In this document: positions 22,421 through 26,927 of the stretch, one piece after another | Layout of the letters: each line of letters opens with the position of its first letter | Numbering within the stretch: the first letter of the stretch is position 1 | Assembly (NCBI RefSeq): GCF_010669145.1 | Contig: NZ_CP048635.1 | Coordinates: 1,137,001-1,201,000 of the forward strand | DNA length: 64,000 bases | Source: Rhizobium oryzihabitans | Lineage (GTDB): Bacteria; Pseudomonadota; Alphaproteobacteria; Rhizobiales; Rhizobiaceae | Direction: 5' to 3' | Translations under genes and position numbers: made by a program | The notes under the pieces: model-generated | Databases searched by the model: none | The model's input: only the letters and a program-made list of their open reading frames with translations | What the model was told of the DNA's origin: nothing

Positions 22421-23029
22421 ATGAATAATCAAACCCCCGTCCCGGACCAGGATGCCTGGGAGGCCTGGAGCCCTGCCGAGCTTTTCCGGCGATTGAGCAG
22501 TGTATCGCGACCCTGGTGCGTGGTTGGCGGCTGGGCGCTCGATCTCTGGCATGGGAAGAAGACACGCGAGCACGAGGATCTGGAATTCACGATTCTTCGT
22601 GCGGATCTGGACATTTTCCGGCGCGAATTGAACGATGTGGAATTTTATACCGTCAATGACGGCGTGCTCGAACGGTTGGCCGCCGACCGGGAACCGGCGA
22701 CGGAGATTTTCCAGATATGGTGTTTTGATCGTGCCGCCCTCCGCTGGCGGGTTGATATGATGATCGAGCCGGGAACGGATGAAAGCTGGGTCTATAAGAG
22801 GGAGCCGCAGATTAGCCGGCCCCGCACCGAAATGGTCTCGCGGACCGCGGGCGGGATTCCTTACCTCAACCCCGCCGCCGTGCTGCTGTTCAAGGCAAAG
22901 CACCGCCGGCCCAAGGACGAGGAAGACTTCGCATACGCCGTGCCGAAATTGCCCGCGGCGGAGCGTCGGTGGCTGCGGGATTGTCTCGAGCGCCTCCACC
23001 CGGAACACGAGTGGGCAAAGGCGCTGTAG
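22421..23029 (+). CDS. Nucleotidyltransferase-fold protein, aminoglycoside adenylyltransferase-like
   Basis: 202 residues. The pattern WCVVGGWALDLWHGKKTREHEDLE at about residues 32-55 is the minimal nucleotidyltransferase signature: Gly-Gly-Trp, then the (D/E)x(D/E) metal pair (EDLE), and a further acidic residue in WRVDMMIEP near 110. A conserved lysine segment LLFKAKHRRPKDEEDF follows near 150. The aminoglycoside 2''-adenylyltransferase-like family (ANT(2'')/LinB fold) has this layout, and many members are not resistance enzymes. Stands alone; 234 bp of apparently empty sequence lies upstream. Resistance function is not implied. Confidence 0.75.
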   Translation: MNNQTPVPDQDAWEAWSPAELFRRLSSVSRPWCVVGGWALDLWHGKKTREHEDLEFTILRADLDIFRRELNDVEFYTVNDGVLERLAADREPATEIFQIWCFDRAALRWRVDMMIEPGTDESWVYKREPQISRPRTEMVSRTAGGIPYLNPAAVLLFKAKHRRPKDEEDFAYAVPKLPAAERRWLRDCLERLHPEHEWAKAL

Positions 23030-23043
23030 GCGTCGAATTGCGC

Positions 23044-23826
23044 CTATTGCGTAATTCGGTCCAGAACGCGGCTCAAAGCCTGCTTCAGCGCGTCCGAACC
23101 GCCATTGTCGTTGAAATCGTTCAAGACCTGCTCGTTGAGCCCGCCTTTGGTGGCGAATTCGCGGCTGAGATCGATGAAGTCGGCGTCCCTGCCGGCATTC
23201 AGCGCCACTTCGGAGAGGCCGGCGAAGAGAGGTGCAAGATAGGCGCGACCTTTCTCTTCCGGCAGGCCGTTCTCAACAAGCCACTCCGTCGTGTGCTGCA
23301 TGATGCCGAAATAGGTGGCCATCAACGCGCTTGCGGCGGCGAGAAGGTCGTATTCCGCCTTTGTTTCGCATTCCACCGCATTGCCGAGCACGTTGAAGAT
23401 CGCCGCCGTATCCGTATCGGGCGGATATAGGGCAGTGACGCCTTTGCGCCGGGCAACGAAGGGCAGGGGGATCGCCTGCGTGAGGCGCACATCCGCGTCG
23501 ATCCAGTCGAGAAGGGCCTGCCGGTCTGTCGCGGCAACGACGCTTATGACCTTTTGCCCATCCCGGAATCGCAAGGCGCGGATGACCTCTTCGGCGATCT
23601 GCGGACGGATCGCTAGCATGACGGTGTCGCAGCCGTCGATGATAGCCTGATTATCGCCGGACACGATCACCTGCGGGAAATCGCTGGCAAGCCTGGCGGA
23701 GATATCTGCGCTGCGCTGGGACACCATGACATGCGGCACGGCGGCGGGCTTGCCGAGTAGGCCCCTTACCATGGCATCGGTGATCGCTCCGGTTCCGATA
23801 AAACCGATCTTTTGGGGAAGGGACAT
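23044..23826 (-). CDS. Pyrroline-5-carboxylate reductase-like oxidoreductase (ProC family)
   Basis: 260 residues. The N-terminal Rossmann motif is KIGFIGTGAITDAMVRGLL at residues 6-24. A dimerisation-domain signature region lies near 190-240 (FAGLSEVALNAGRDAD, REFATKGGLNEQ). The usual ProC catalytic consensus (PGGTT, where P5C sits) is replaced here by FATKGGLNEQ, so it may act on a different imine or be a ProC paralogue. Single gene convergent with the nucleotidyltransferase gene (14-bp gap). Confidence 0.8.
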   Translation of the reverse strand: MSLPQKIGFIGTGAITDAMVRGLLGKPAAVPHVMVSQRSADISARLASDFPQVIVSGDNQAIIDGCDTVMLAIRPQIAEEVIRALRFRDGQKVISVVAATDRQALLDWIDADVRLTQAIPLPFVARRKGVTALYPPDTDTAAIFNVLGNAVECETKAEYDLLAAASALMATYFGIMQHTTEWLVENGLPEEKGRAYLAPLFAGLSEVALNAGRDADFIDLSREFATKGGLNEQVLNDFNDNGGSDALKQALSRVLDRITQ

Positions 23827-23941: not shown

Positions 23942-24688
23942 CTAGTGCCCCGGATGCAGGGCGTCATTGAGGTACATGCAGGTCAGCATCGTGAACACAT
24001 ACGCCTGAATTGCGGCCATCAGAAACTCCAGCGCCGTGATTGCGACCGTCATGAAAAGCGGCGCGATGGCGCCGATCATGCCGAGAGCATTGACGCTCGC
24101 CAGCGACACGACAAAACCGGCAAAGACCTTCAGGGTGATGTGACCGGCAAGCATGACGGCGAACAGGCGGACGGAGTGGCTGACCGGTCGCGAAATATAG
24201 GAGATGATTTCAATCGGCACGATGATGGGCGCGAGGATTGCCGGTATTCCCGCCGGTTTGAACAGGCCGAGAAAACGGATGCCGTGTTTGAAGATGCCAT
24301 ACAGCGTGACGGTGCCGAACACCATCATCGCCAAGCCAAATGTGACGATGATCTGGCTCGTAACCGTGAAAGCGTAAGGAAACATGCCGATCATGTTCGC
24401 AAACAGAATGAACATGAAAAGCGAGAAAACGAAGGGGAAGAACCGCATTCCCTGCTCGCCGGCATTGTCACGCAGGGTCTTGGCGACGAACAGGTAAAGC
24501 ATTTCAGCACTGGATTGCCACCGGCCGGGCACGAGGCGCGCCCTGCTCGTGGCAAGCAGCAGGAACGAACTCGCCAGGGTGACGGTGAGGAACATGTATG
24601 CCGAGGCATTGGTGAAGCTGAGATCGATATCACCGATGGTAATTTCAACGAGAGGTTTGACTTCGAATTGCTCGATAGGGCCGGCCAT
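23942..24688 (-). CDS. atpB: Orphan F0F1 ATP synthase subunit a paralogue
   Basis: 248 residues starting [10 protein letters not shown], with AAGGA 8 nt upstream of ATG 24688. It has the five-helix subunit a layout and alphaproteobacterial signatures [19 protein letters not shown] and [17 protein letters not shown]. The essential arginine is present (SVRLF), but the motif reads [13 protein letters not shown] where canonical rhizobial AtpB, from memory, has SLSVRLFANMLAG: the conserved Asn after RLFA is Val and Leu is His. No other atp gene is nearby, so this is a second, isolated copy. A guanidine-II-like riboswitch and short leader ORF lie upstream. It may form an alternative F0 or act alone in ion transport. 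Confidence 0.85.
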
Positions 24689-24698
24689 GGAGGGTCCT

Positions 24699-24821
24699 TC
24701 AGTAACTTGCGGCAATGACAGGAATATGCTGATGCTCCAGGTCGCGGCTGTGCCGGACGCAGGAAGACCGCGTGTGTGGTGGAGCATCAGAAATGAGGAG
24801 GGTGTTCGCTATGTCGGTCAT
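24699..24821 (-). CDS. Putative 40-residue leader ORF between riboswitch A and atpB paralogue
   Basis: An ATG 22 nt after the second hairpin of riboswitch A opens a 40-codon frame ([17 protein letters not shown]...) with GGG-AUCAGG just upstream. Its TGA stop lies 10 nt before the atpB start and overlaps the AAGGA ribosome site. That layout would let the riboswitch control the leader and couple it to atpB. No similarity is recognised; it may simply be chance. Confidence 0.35.
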
Positions 24822-25095
24822 CCTGATCCCAAGTTTGAGAATCAGGGCCGTCCCCGGAACGTTTCAAGGCGCGGGTCGTCCCGCGCGAGCGCTTTCTAGC
24901 CAAATCGTCGGCGGGTGGCAATGGCTTTCGGGCAAATGCATCGGCGCGGGAAAGTCTGACCGCGTTGTTGGCGACAAGAATGAAGATCACGGCCGCTGAG
25001 ATCAGCGTTTTCCAGCTTGCAGTGCGCTCGTGTGCACTTCGCATGGCCGTATTCGAAATGTCTCGATAAAGCGTCTGCTGCGTTTTCCACATCAT
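24787..25095 (-). CDS. Putative small membrane protein downstream of riboswitch B
   Basis: About 102 residues ([15 protein letters not shown]...) from ATG 25095, 15 nt after riboswitch B. A single clear transmembrane helix follows ([15 protein letters not shown] at about 31-45) with a basic flank. The tail ([15 protein letters not shown]) is encoded by riboswitch A and looks less protein-like, so the natural protein may end differently. The start position relative to the hairpins matches the chaA arrangement, which supports a real gene. No family recognised. Confidence 0.45.
24843..24886 (-). ncRNA. Guanidine-II (mini-ykkC) riboswitch-like element A
   Basis: Read on the minus strand: hairpin 1 is CGCGGG-ACGA-CCCGCG (24870-24885, extendable by one pair), then a 13-nt linker, then hairpin 2 CGGGG-ACGG-CCCUG (24843-24856, one G-U pair). 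Tandem short hairpins with ACGR tetraloops are the hallmark of guanidine-II riboswitches, where each loop contributes to guanidinium binding and the loops kiss. It precedes the atpB paralogue by about 155 nt, with a leader ORF between. Confidence 0.82.
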
Positions 25096-25110
25096 GAATC
25101 TCACGATTGT

Positions 25111-25154
25111 GGGGTCGTCCCCGTGTGGGTTTGCAGAGCGCGGGTCGTCCCGCG
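25111..25154 (-). ncRNA. Guanidine-II (mini-ykkC) riboswitch-like element B
   Basis: Minus strand: hairpin 1 CGCGGG-ACGA-CCCGCG (25139-25154), a 16-nt linker, hairpin 2 GGGG-ACGA-CCCC (25111-25122). It begins 13 nt after the chaA stop and ends 15 nt before the small membrane-protein ATG, so it is intercistronic and could give that ORF separate control. Both loops fit ACGR exactly. Confidence 0.85.
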
Positions 25155-25167
25155 ATGCCGGACGTTC

Positions 25168-26328
25168 TCAGGCCGTAAACAGGAGCAGCCCAAAGATTGC
25201 AAACAGCATCAGATGCAGCAGCCCCTGCACCGCAGATGTCCGCCGGCCAAGATATGTCAGGGTCGTCAGCGCGATGGTCAGCGCAAAGAGGATGGTTTCC
25301 GTGGGCGAAATTCCGAAGATCACCATTTTGCCGGACAGGAGGCCGACCGTTAGAACCGCCGGCACGGTCAGCCCGACAGTCGAGACGAATGCCCCAAGGC
25401 ACAGGTTGATTGCCCGTTGCGTCTCGTTTTTCAGCGCAGCCTTCACGGCCGTGATCGATTCCGGCGTGAAGACGATGATCGCGATGAGCACGCCGCCAAC
25501 CGCAACGGGAGCACCGGCCCGGGCGACGCCAAAATCGATGACGATGGCAAGGTCGTGCGCGAGCAGCACGATCGGTAACATCAACCCGATCAGCATCGCC
25601 GAGTGAACGATGTTCTTTTTGCGGGCTCCGCCACCCGTCGCAATATCGGCCTCTGGGGCCGGGCGAGCAATTGGCTCCGCCAGCCGGATCGACATCCGTC
25701 CCGGCGCGGGCTGCATGAAATGGCTGCGGTAACGGCCCATCTGAAGCACGAGGAAACCGCCGTAGACAATCACGGTTACGACCGAAACTACAATGGCCTG
25801 GAGAGCGGTGAACGTGCCATCGGCAGCCGGCAGCGTATTCGGAACCAGAAGCGCGACACCGGCCAATACGACCGTCATTGCGATGAAGGAGACGGCACCC
25901 GGCGCATTATATTCCTGCTCGCCATACCGTATCGCGCCCGCAAGCAGGCAGATACCCGTCACGAGGTTGAGGATGATCATCATCACGGCGAATATGGAAT
26001 CTCTTCCGATCGTCGGGGCCTCGTTTGGCCCGAGCATCACGGCGGCAATCAGGATCACCTCGATTGCAACGATCGACAGGGTGAGAATGAGCGTTCCGTA
26101 GGGTTCGCCCAACTGATGGGCCAGTTCATCGGCTTCTTTCACAACCCCGAAAGCCGCCATCAGAATGGTGGCGAAGAGAACGAGAAAGCAGGATATTGCA
26201 ACTGTCGGGGTCATATCCGGCGAAAGCCACGACGTCCCGGCGGACTGAAAAACCACGACGACCAGCCAAGCCACGACGAGTTTGGGCCAGGCGCCCCGGA
26301 TAAATGATGGAGATTTTGTATCTGACAT
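25168..26328 (-). CDS. chaA: Calcium/cation:proton antiporter (ChaA-like)
   Basis: 386 residues with about 11 membrane helices in two homologous halves. The CaCA exchanger motifs carry the transport glutamates: EADELAHQLGEPYGTLILTLSIVAIE near residue 63 and FTPESITAVKAALKNETQRAINLCLGA near 286. A charged central loop (about 205-235) separates the halves. I chose ATG 26328 because GAGG sits 7-8 nt upstream, right after riboswitch C; an ATG at 26343 touches the hairpin and has no site. E. coli ChaA exports Ca2+, Na+ and K+. With a guanidine-II-type leader, guanidinium export is an attractive hypothesis. Confidence 0.9.
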   Translation of the reverse strand: MSDTKSPSFIRGAWPKLVVAWLVVVVFQSAGTSWLSPDMTPTVAISCFLVLFATILMAAFGVVKEADELAHQLGEPYGTLILTLSIVAIEVILIAAVMLGPNEAPTIGRDSIFAVMMIILNLVTGICLLAGAIRYGEQEYNAPGAVSFIAMTVVLAGVALLVPNTLPAADGTFTALQAIVVSVVTVIVYGGFLVLQMGRYRSHFMQPAPGRMSIRLAEPIARPAPEADIATGGGARKKNIVHSAMLIGLMLPIVLLAHDLAIVIDFGVARAGAPVAVGGVLIAIIVFTPESITAVKAALKNETQRAINLCLGAFVSTVGLTVPAVLTVGLLSGKMVIFGISPTETILFALTIALTTLTYLGRRTSAVQGLLHLMLFAIFGLLLFTA

Positions 26329-26345
26329 TGCAGGCGACCTCATCT

Positions 26346-26387
26346 GGGGTCGTCCCCGGCAATCTGTCGCATTCGGGTCGTCCCGAA
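26346..26387 (-). ncRNA. Guanidine-II (mini-ykkC) riboswitch-like element C (chaA leader)
   Basis: Minus strand: hairpin 1 UUCGGG-ACGA-CCCGAA (26372-26387), a 14-nt linker, hairpin 2 GGGG-ACGA-CCCC (26346-26357). The chaA ribosome site (GAGG) follows almost immediately and the ATG is 17 nt beyond hairpin 2. This suggests translational control, with ligand-bound kissing hairpins freeing the ribosome site. Confidence 0.88.
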
Positions 26388-26498
26388 CGAAGCTTCGTCA
26401 AGCAGTTGCGGCTAGCGATATCATGACAGGGTTCTTGAAGGCAATGGTGCTGGAATGCCTACCTTGAAGATCTGTGCCGCTGATGATAGCACACTTCC

Positions 26499-26542
26499 GT
26501 GCAGGACGACCTGCGCCATCCGGATCAAGAGGGGACGGCCCC
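26499..26542 (+). ncRNA. Guanidine-II (mini-ykkC) riboswitch-like element D
   Basis: Plus strand: hairpin 1 GCAGG-ACGA-CCUGC (26501-26514, extendable by G-U and G-C pairs to 26499-26516), a 14-nt linker, hairpin 2 GGGG-ACGG-CCCC (26531-26542). It is divergent from element C (111 bp apart) and points at the leader ORF and mnhF. Stem sequence differs from A-C while the ACGR loops are kept: covariation within one window. Confidence 0.87.
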
Positions 26543-26630: not shown

Positions 26631-26642
26631 GCGGTGCCGGCG

Positions 26643-26927
26643 ATGTTGAGTTCGGATATCATTTACTGGTCGACCACCTTTGCGCAGGGAATGCTTCTAC
26701 TTTCCATGGCGCTCGTCACATATCGCCTGATCAAGGGGCCACGGGCGCAGGATCGCGTCATGGCTGTCGACACGATCTACAATCTGGCAATATTGCAGGC
26801 CTTGGTGCTGGCGATCAAAACCGGAAACGCCCTCTATCTCCCCTTTATTCTCATCCTTGCAATTCTCGGCTTCGTTTCGACAGTCGCGCTCGCAAAGTTT
26901 CTGATGCGAGGGGAAGTGATCGAGTGA
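26643..26927 (+). CDS. Orphan monovalent cation/H+ antiporter subunit F (MnhF/PhaF-like)
   Basis: 94 residues with three membrane helices (about 8-25, 36-55, 62-83). Signature stretches are SMALVTYRLIKGPRAQDRVMAVDTIYNLA and GFVSTVALAKFL. MnhF/PhaF is normally one of six or seven subunits of Mrp-type Na+(K+)/H+ antiporters, but no other Mrp gene is present here. Start is ATG 26643 or GTG 26634. Riboswitch D plus a leader ORF precede it, so it belongs to the same putative guanidine-responsive set as chaA and the atpB paralogue. Confidence 0.85.
   Translation: MLSSDIIYWSTTFAQGMLLLSMALVTYRLIKGPRAQDRVMAVDTIYNLAILQALVLAIKTGNALYLPFILILAILGFVSTVALAKFLMRGEVIE

Follow-up and report, generated by a model that had tools for sequence, protein, structure and literature searches.

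The window analysed here, a stretch of 64,000 nucleotides of Rhizobium oryzihabitans DNA, contains four candidate guanidine-II riboswitches within 1.7 kb. In order of transcription, the minus strand carries a riboswitch, the gene of a CaCA antiporter, a second riboswitch, the gene of a small protein, a third riboswitch, a leader ORF and finally the gene of AtpB2, a solo paralogue of subunit a of the F0 ATP synthase. On the plus strand, and divergent from this series, lie a fourth riboswitch, a leader ORF and a solo mrpF gene. The features are:

23942..24688, minus strand: AtpB2, solo paralogue of F0 ATP-synthase subunit a, 248 aa, signature His171/Arg174/Val178 (NF004482, PF00119)
24699..24821, minus strand: 40-codon leader ORF between riboswitch and atpB2, its stop 10 nt before the atpB2 ATG (24688)
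24787..25095, minus strand: small protein with one hydrophobic helix (alignment of 6 loci)
24843..24887, minus strand: Guanidine-II (RF01068) before the leader ORF and atpB2, 38.8 bits (53.6 bits with the purpose-built model R1)
25110..25156, minus strand: Guanidine-II (RF01068) before the small membrane protein, 40.9 bits
25168..26328, minus strand: cation/H+ antiporter of the CaCA superfamily, ChaA-like (PF01699, 74.7 bits, cut-off 24.9)
26345..26389, minus strand: Guanidine-II (RF01068) before the CaCA antiporter, 40.3 bits
26498..26542, plus strand: Guanidine-II (RF01068) before the leader ORF and mrpF, divergent from the other three, 35.2 bits
26571..26630, plus strand: 19-codon leader ORF between riboswitch and mrpF, its stop just before mrpF (read from the sequence)
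26634..26927, plus strand: solo paralogue of MrpF/PhaF, subunit F of a monovalent cation/H+ antiporter (PF04066, 60.2 bits; NF004812, 105.9 bits, cut-off 93)

The elements were sought by cmscan with all 4227 families of Rfam 15, where RF01068 has a curated cut-off of 32 bits. A preliminary description had proposed four guanidine-II-like riboswitches at this place, and all four indeed pass the covariance model (35.2 to 40.9 bits), at coordinates that agree with the earlier ones to two or three bases; the 64-kb window holds no other match to RF01068. A plain rule scan (two ACGR hairpins with stems of at least 4 pairs, summing to at least 9, and a linker of 3 to 40 nt) returned exactly 4 hairpin pairs, compared to 0.075 on average over 40 re-samplings with an order-1 Markov model. 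A laxer version (stems of 3, sum of 8) returned 6 pairs, two of them unrelated, vs. 0.325 in the re-samplings. The loops are all ACGA or ACGG, as had been described (ACGA/ACGA in two elements and ACGA/ACGG in the other two), but the linkers measure 12 to 16 nt in the scan rather than 13 to 16 nt. Each element was also said to lie 15 to 28 nt before an ATG. This ATG is present in all four cases; in two of them, however, it opens just a short leader ORF (24821 and 26571).

The observation that the stems vary while the loops stay fixed extends far outside the window. Among 69 distinct relatives, 10 of 14 pairs show two-sided change, and the stem covariation score is 0.433 vs. 0.121 in shuffled alignments; since the rows were preselected as paired, cells that are 100% paired carry no weight and the variety of pair types is the informative part. 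It might be argued that these are not riboswitches but hairpin repeats, mobile or arisen by chance, given the shortness of the conserved GGGACGACCC core and the close spacing of the four copies. However, the whole 5.86-Mb genome has just five RF01068 matches, the fifth on another contig, the covariation affects both sides of the stems and the elements stand upstream of the same genes across genera. Chance hairpins were rejected on the grounds of genome-wide scarcity and covariation, and repeats of either kind are an extremely improbable source of these elements.

No SMR exporter or guanidine-degrading enzyme follows any element within the window, in agreement with the preliminary description; the F0 subunit-a paralogue, the small protein, the CaCA antiporter and MrpF occupy these places instead. 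AtpB2 passes the family models NF004482 (360.5 bits, cut-off 225) and TIGR01131 (226.1 bits, cut-off 102.6) and scores 214 bits with PF00119, for which the longer ORF was used. It is 99% identical to the AtpB2 of Agrobacterium genomosp. 13. The ordinary atpB of the genome, 64% identical to AtpB2, lies on another contig (C1:1408138) in the atp operon, flanked by atpI-like and c/b-like ORFs. AtpB2, in contrast, stands outside the atp operon, with neither atpE nor atpF beside it in the ORF list of the window.

The antiporter scores best among NCBIfam models with ChaA (NF007895), at 179 bits under an equivalog cut-off of 505, and is assigned here to PF01699 only; a single distant homologue (32% identity) is encoded elsewhere in the genome. 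The solo MrpF has three other copies in the genome (55, 40 and 35% identity), whose adjoining ORFs look Mrp/Pha-like by eye. No further Mrp-like ORF was found beside the solo MrpF among the listed ORFs of the window, and it is not in an mrp/pha operon. An acidic position in the last helix is proline in all six switch-linked MrpF sequences vs. glutamate or aspartate in the genome's three other copies. The small protein matches no Pfam or NCBIfam family, and about its first 56 residues are conserved in the alignment of 6 loci. Its frame runs on through the AtpB2 riboswitch (24843-24887) in the window strain and at loci L035, L037 and L038, and terminates before the end of this riboswitch at L040 and L056; ribosomes translating the frame might disturb the AtpB2 switch. 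The pyrroline-5-carboxylate reductase gene (23044-23826) was considered as a further member of the unit and rejected: it has no switch and lies near AtpB2 in only 3 of 80 loci (L035, L036 and L037). Still further along, an ORF on the plus strand (22421-23029) weakly matches PF10706 (26.4 bits, cut-off 21), a family that is of the nucleotidyltransferase type and takes its name from aminoglycoside adenylyltransferase.

Relatives were obtained by a search for AtpB2 loci, of which the best 80 of 158 were analysed. Model R1 was made from 72 elements, with 48 of the 80 loci contributing their AtpB2-side element. With this model, 76 of these best 80 of 158 loci show an upstream element at AtpB2, as do 28 of the 32 that played no part in model building, some of which are near-copies of loci that did. 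The remaining four (L051, L096, L099 and L103) have no convincing element: with the filters off, nothing appeared at L096, L099 and L103, and L051 gave one weak match (18 bits) about 760 nt upstream. When RF01068 itself was applied to the 11 loci missed by the plain scan, two upstream elements passed (L044 and L058) and nine stayed below the cut-off.

The genus provides an independent test of the link between AtpB2 and the switch, with RF01068 and AtpB2 sought in the same 39 genomes and their positions matched by hand. AtpB2 occurs in 12 of these genomes and has an RF01068 match just upstream in 12/12. The ordinary atpB occurs in 39/39 genomes, with RF01068 nearby in 0/39, and model R1 found no element at 29 ordinary atpB loci. 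All four switches are present in only 8 of the 39 genomes, the mrpF-side switch being below the cut-off in two of the eight. At the level of the order, two lineages (G240 and G245) have both the AtpB2 signature and an upstream switch. At least 26 of 249 order genomes have two or more subunit-a matches among the matches listed; a wider form of the signature pattern, applied to order genomes with at least two such matches among those listed, picked out two of 25 besides our own genome (again G240 and G245), or three including our own. A narrow form, which misses the Ala variant, picked out our own genome only among 240 genomes of the class, and a 6.5-kb query of a plasmid collection returned no record covering 80% of it. 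Judged from these comparisons, the AtpB2-switch link is nearly constant and no local oddity. At the level of sequence, guanidine regulation of AtpB2 is well supported.

The AtpB2 proteins themselves are strongly constrained. Across the 81 sequences, from the 80 loci and the window, the residue is invariant at 68 positions. At 63 of these the genome's ordinary copy has the same residue, and the idea of a pseudogene was discarded on these grounds. The five invariant positions unlike the ordinary copy are F124, L142, H171, V178 and M224. H171 lies three residues before and V178 four residues after the essential arginine, on one face of the helix. His171 and Val178 occur together in 81/81 AtpB2, vs. 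Leu and Asn in 29/29 ordinary copies (the best-scoring among the matches listed in the order genomes, plus our own), and AtpB2 forms a single clade with a support of 100/100 in a tree using 72 of 112 rows. Arg174, His183, Glu221 and Gln228, i.e. the essential arginine and the half-channel residues, are retained in 81/81 AtpB2; we take them to be the counterparts of E. coli R210, E219, H245 and Q252, respectively.

The value of His171 as a unique mark is weakened by the subunit a of Paracoccus (5dn6), which has the histidine and keeps the asparagine. Asparagine is found in all four subunit-a chains shown from solved structures; it is usual but not universal in subunit a, and the place of E. coli N214 is valine in 81/81 AtpB2. 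According to excerpts of two papers, Asn214 of E. coli adjoins the leading c-ring carboxylate and the guanidinium group of the arginine and passes on the incoming proton, and an N214L mutant has shifted pKa values and a motor that still works (PMC8754430, PMC6377231). Natural replacements of this asparagine by hydrophobic residues or glycine are described for Toxoplasma and Thermus (excerpts of PMC8754430).

These residues also bear on the idea of independent roles for AtpB2, the CaCA protein and MrpF, away from their parent complexes, as carriers or channels for guanidinium or other cations, AtpB2 being part of an exporter beside Gdx. Known targets of this switch class are mostly transporters (excerpts of PMC12186494), and every recognisable switch-linked product in the window is a membrane cation/proton protein. 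However, the 63 of 68 invariant positions shared with the ordinary copy include all polar residues examined except the asparagine, which points to use of AtpB2 with a c-ring. Subunit a is not known to have transport activity on its own. A carrier function for these proteins is, in our opinion, distinctly unlikely.

Folded as RNA alone, the four window leaders are predicted to form P1 and to open P2, the 3' arm of which would pair with the downstream start region (z -1.7 to -3.4). In a set of 107 leaders, this pairing has an average probability of 0.64 vs. 0.23 with re-sampled tails, and it is above the leader's own control in 91/107. The predicted probability exceeds 0.5 in 54 of 66 AtpB2 leaders; in the window leaders it is 0.94, 0.80 and 0.64, and 0.43 in the fourth. 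The prediction fails for the switches located after AtpB2, on the Gdx side (0.38 vs. 0.30, with 9/21 above 0.5); at L040 and L056, the switch before the antiporter has a predicted downstream pairing of 0.00. The predicted arrangement matches the translational ON mechanism with anti-Shine-Dalgarno pairing presented in excerpts of PMC7544219 and PMC13064478. Each gene of the locus would possess its own translational ON switch. In the absence of guanidinium, the 3' arm of P2 would pair with the downstream Shine-Dalgarno and start region; in its presence, P1 and P2 would be held together and the start site freed, either directly or via a short coupled leader ORF.

The leader ORF before atpB2 has equivalents in relatives. 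Of 47 loci where the spacer is long, 42 have an ORF that opens 8 to 54 nt past the switch and ends no more than 40 nt from the atpB2 start, compared to 15.9 (sd 3.0, maximum 23) in 100 sets of re-sampled spacers. This excess suggests that translation of the leader ORF is probably coupled to that of atpB2. A specific leader peptide was also considered; the leader ORFs share no conserved sequence across genera by eye, and coupling is the better guess. The atpB2 leader ORF of the window also contains an inverted repeat at 24727-24790 (GATGCTCC...GGAGCATC); it is imperfect at L035 and therefore probably not a conserved element.

A Gdx-type SMR gene follows AtpB2 directly on its 3' side, on the same strand and within about 330 nt, in 29 of the 80 loci. 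The gap between the two genes holds a further element in 24 of these 29, two of them weak (E about 0.04), and the Gdx copy of L060 scores 131 bits with the SugE model (cut-off 126). The antiporter lies upstream of AtpB2 in 10/80 loci, with its own element in 10/10; MrpF is present at 5/80 AtpB2 loci (element in 5/5) and the small protein at 6/80 (element in 5). Elsewhere in the genus, Guanidine-II elements at 22 loci inspected by eye precede genes for PACE-type efflux (16), DUF1989 (4) and AtpB2 (2), the PACE and DUF1989 assignments being profile-tested on L003 and L028 only. The fifth element of our genome (C1:494958-495007, L003) precedes by 20 nt an efflux gene of the PACE family (NF033664, 134 bits, cut-off 80; PF05232); the literature searched yielded no case of guanidine-controlled PACE. 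The single SMR gene found in this genome (L194, C1 near 2837466) follows a TetR-like ORF and has no switch. Its product looks un-Gdx-like by eye, and the genome may thus rely on PACE and the module of the window against guanidinium.

The distribution of these neighbours is relevant to a reading in which the locus is a general ion or pH stress module and guanidinium is merely a signal, e.g. of plant tissue. Plant enzymes release guanidine (excerpts of PMC11018352), and Na+-I riboswitches, which precede Na+ antiporter and Na+ ATP-synthase genes, are a precedent for ion-sensing switches before genes of these two types (excerpts of PMC9971707). The likeness is that of a cation-sensing RNA governing ATP-synthase and antiporter genes; RNA and ion are different, and whole synthase gene sets are controlled in that case (same excerpts) vs. 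one spare subunit here. AtpB2 and Gdx are also found together in lineages that lack the antiporters, in keeping with a role directed at guanidinium itself, and a general stress module strikes us as very unlikely.

We tentatively favor, at a confidence just short of even, the explanation that the locus is a guanidine-induced regulon in which a translationally switched AtpB2 replaces the ordinary proton channel under guanidinium. Guanidinium is able to mimic arginine side chains and to displace them, and at about 26 mM it inhibits bovine mitochondrial complex I; biguanides inhibit ATP synthase, while metformin and buformin left ATP synthesis uninhibited (all from excerpts of PMC4148174). No report of guanidinium itself inhibiting F1F0 was found in the literature searched. 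From the role of Asn214 and the displacement of arginine by guanidinium, we infer that the ordinary channel could be a target of guanidinium and AtpB2 a tolerant substitute. AtpB2 would take the place of ordinary subunit a beside the existing c-ring and F1, giving an ATP synthase whose proton channel tolerates guanidinium, a mimic of that channel's essential arginine. No c-subunit gene of its own lies near AtpB2, and use of the ordinary c-ring is therefore assumed. In the Agrobacterium version of the locus, the antiporter, MrpF and the small protein would serve ion and proton balance under guanidinium stress. The more specific notion of target replacement, with a riboswitch-induced, guanidinium-proof isoform of the F0 channel and, in Agrobacterium-type genomes, an extension to a Mrp/Pha subunit (the solo MrpF), is possible but more doubtful.

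The main rival is that AtpB2, again within the ATP synthase, slows or re-tunes proton flow and thereby saves the proton motive force for H+-coupled exporters (Gdx or PACE, and antiporters) under guanidinium. Val replaces Asn at the place where, in E. coli, the N214L mutation shifts the pKa of a protonation step (excerpts of PMC8754430), Gdx exchanges one guanidinium out for two protons (excerpts of PMC12186494) and AtpB2 adjoins Gdx in the 29 loci mentioned above. The antiporters of the window, in contrast, consume proton motive force and would be needless for saving it, and nothing here tells such a brake apart from tolerance. We consider it unlikely, though a reading to be taken seriously.

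The switch itself is a plain member of its family, with tandem ACGR hairpins, a linker, a place before start sites, a predicted release of the Shine-Dalgarno sequence and a score above the RF01068 cut-off; the regulated gene and its conserved pairing with the switch are the new part. Compared to the usual RF01068 cases, an F0 subunit-a paralogue, a CaCA antiporter and MrpF would be controlled here, by four switches in 1.7 kb, and in 2/4 cases in the window a leader ORF intervenes between switch and gene. Gdx (SugE-type SMR) systems are under the same switch class and Gdx is a frequent neighbour of AtpB2 in relatives, but it is absent from the window. AtpB2 has in common with AtpB the family models and the essential arginine and half-channel His/Glu/Gln; it differs in being solo and outside the atp operon, in forming its own clade and in the Leu-to-His and Asn-to-Val changes beside the arginine. 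A guanidine switch linked with an ATP-synthase subunit was not found in the full-text literature searched, a scope that leaves aside most subscription papers and the founding 2017 paper of the class.

The persistence of the AtpB2-switch pairing in many relatives suggests that cells may exchange a component of their machinery besides pumping guanidine out. If an ATP-synthase subunit is indeed under such conserved control, guanidine would elicit a response of a second kind, the arginine-containing proton channel would emerge as a probable target of guanidinium in the cell, and the stator channel would provide an example of an inducible isoform. If this is true, bacteria meet guanidinium by replacing its target as well as by export and breakdown. 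It should be noted that the L096 record among the relatives is named Bacillus subtilis SK6B4, while the neighbours of its AtpB2 locus resemble Pseudochrobactrum; it is probably a mislabelled or mixed assembly.
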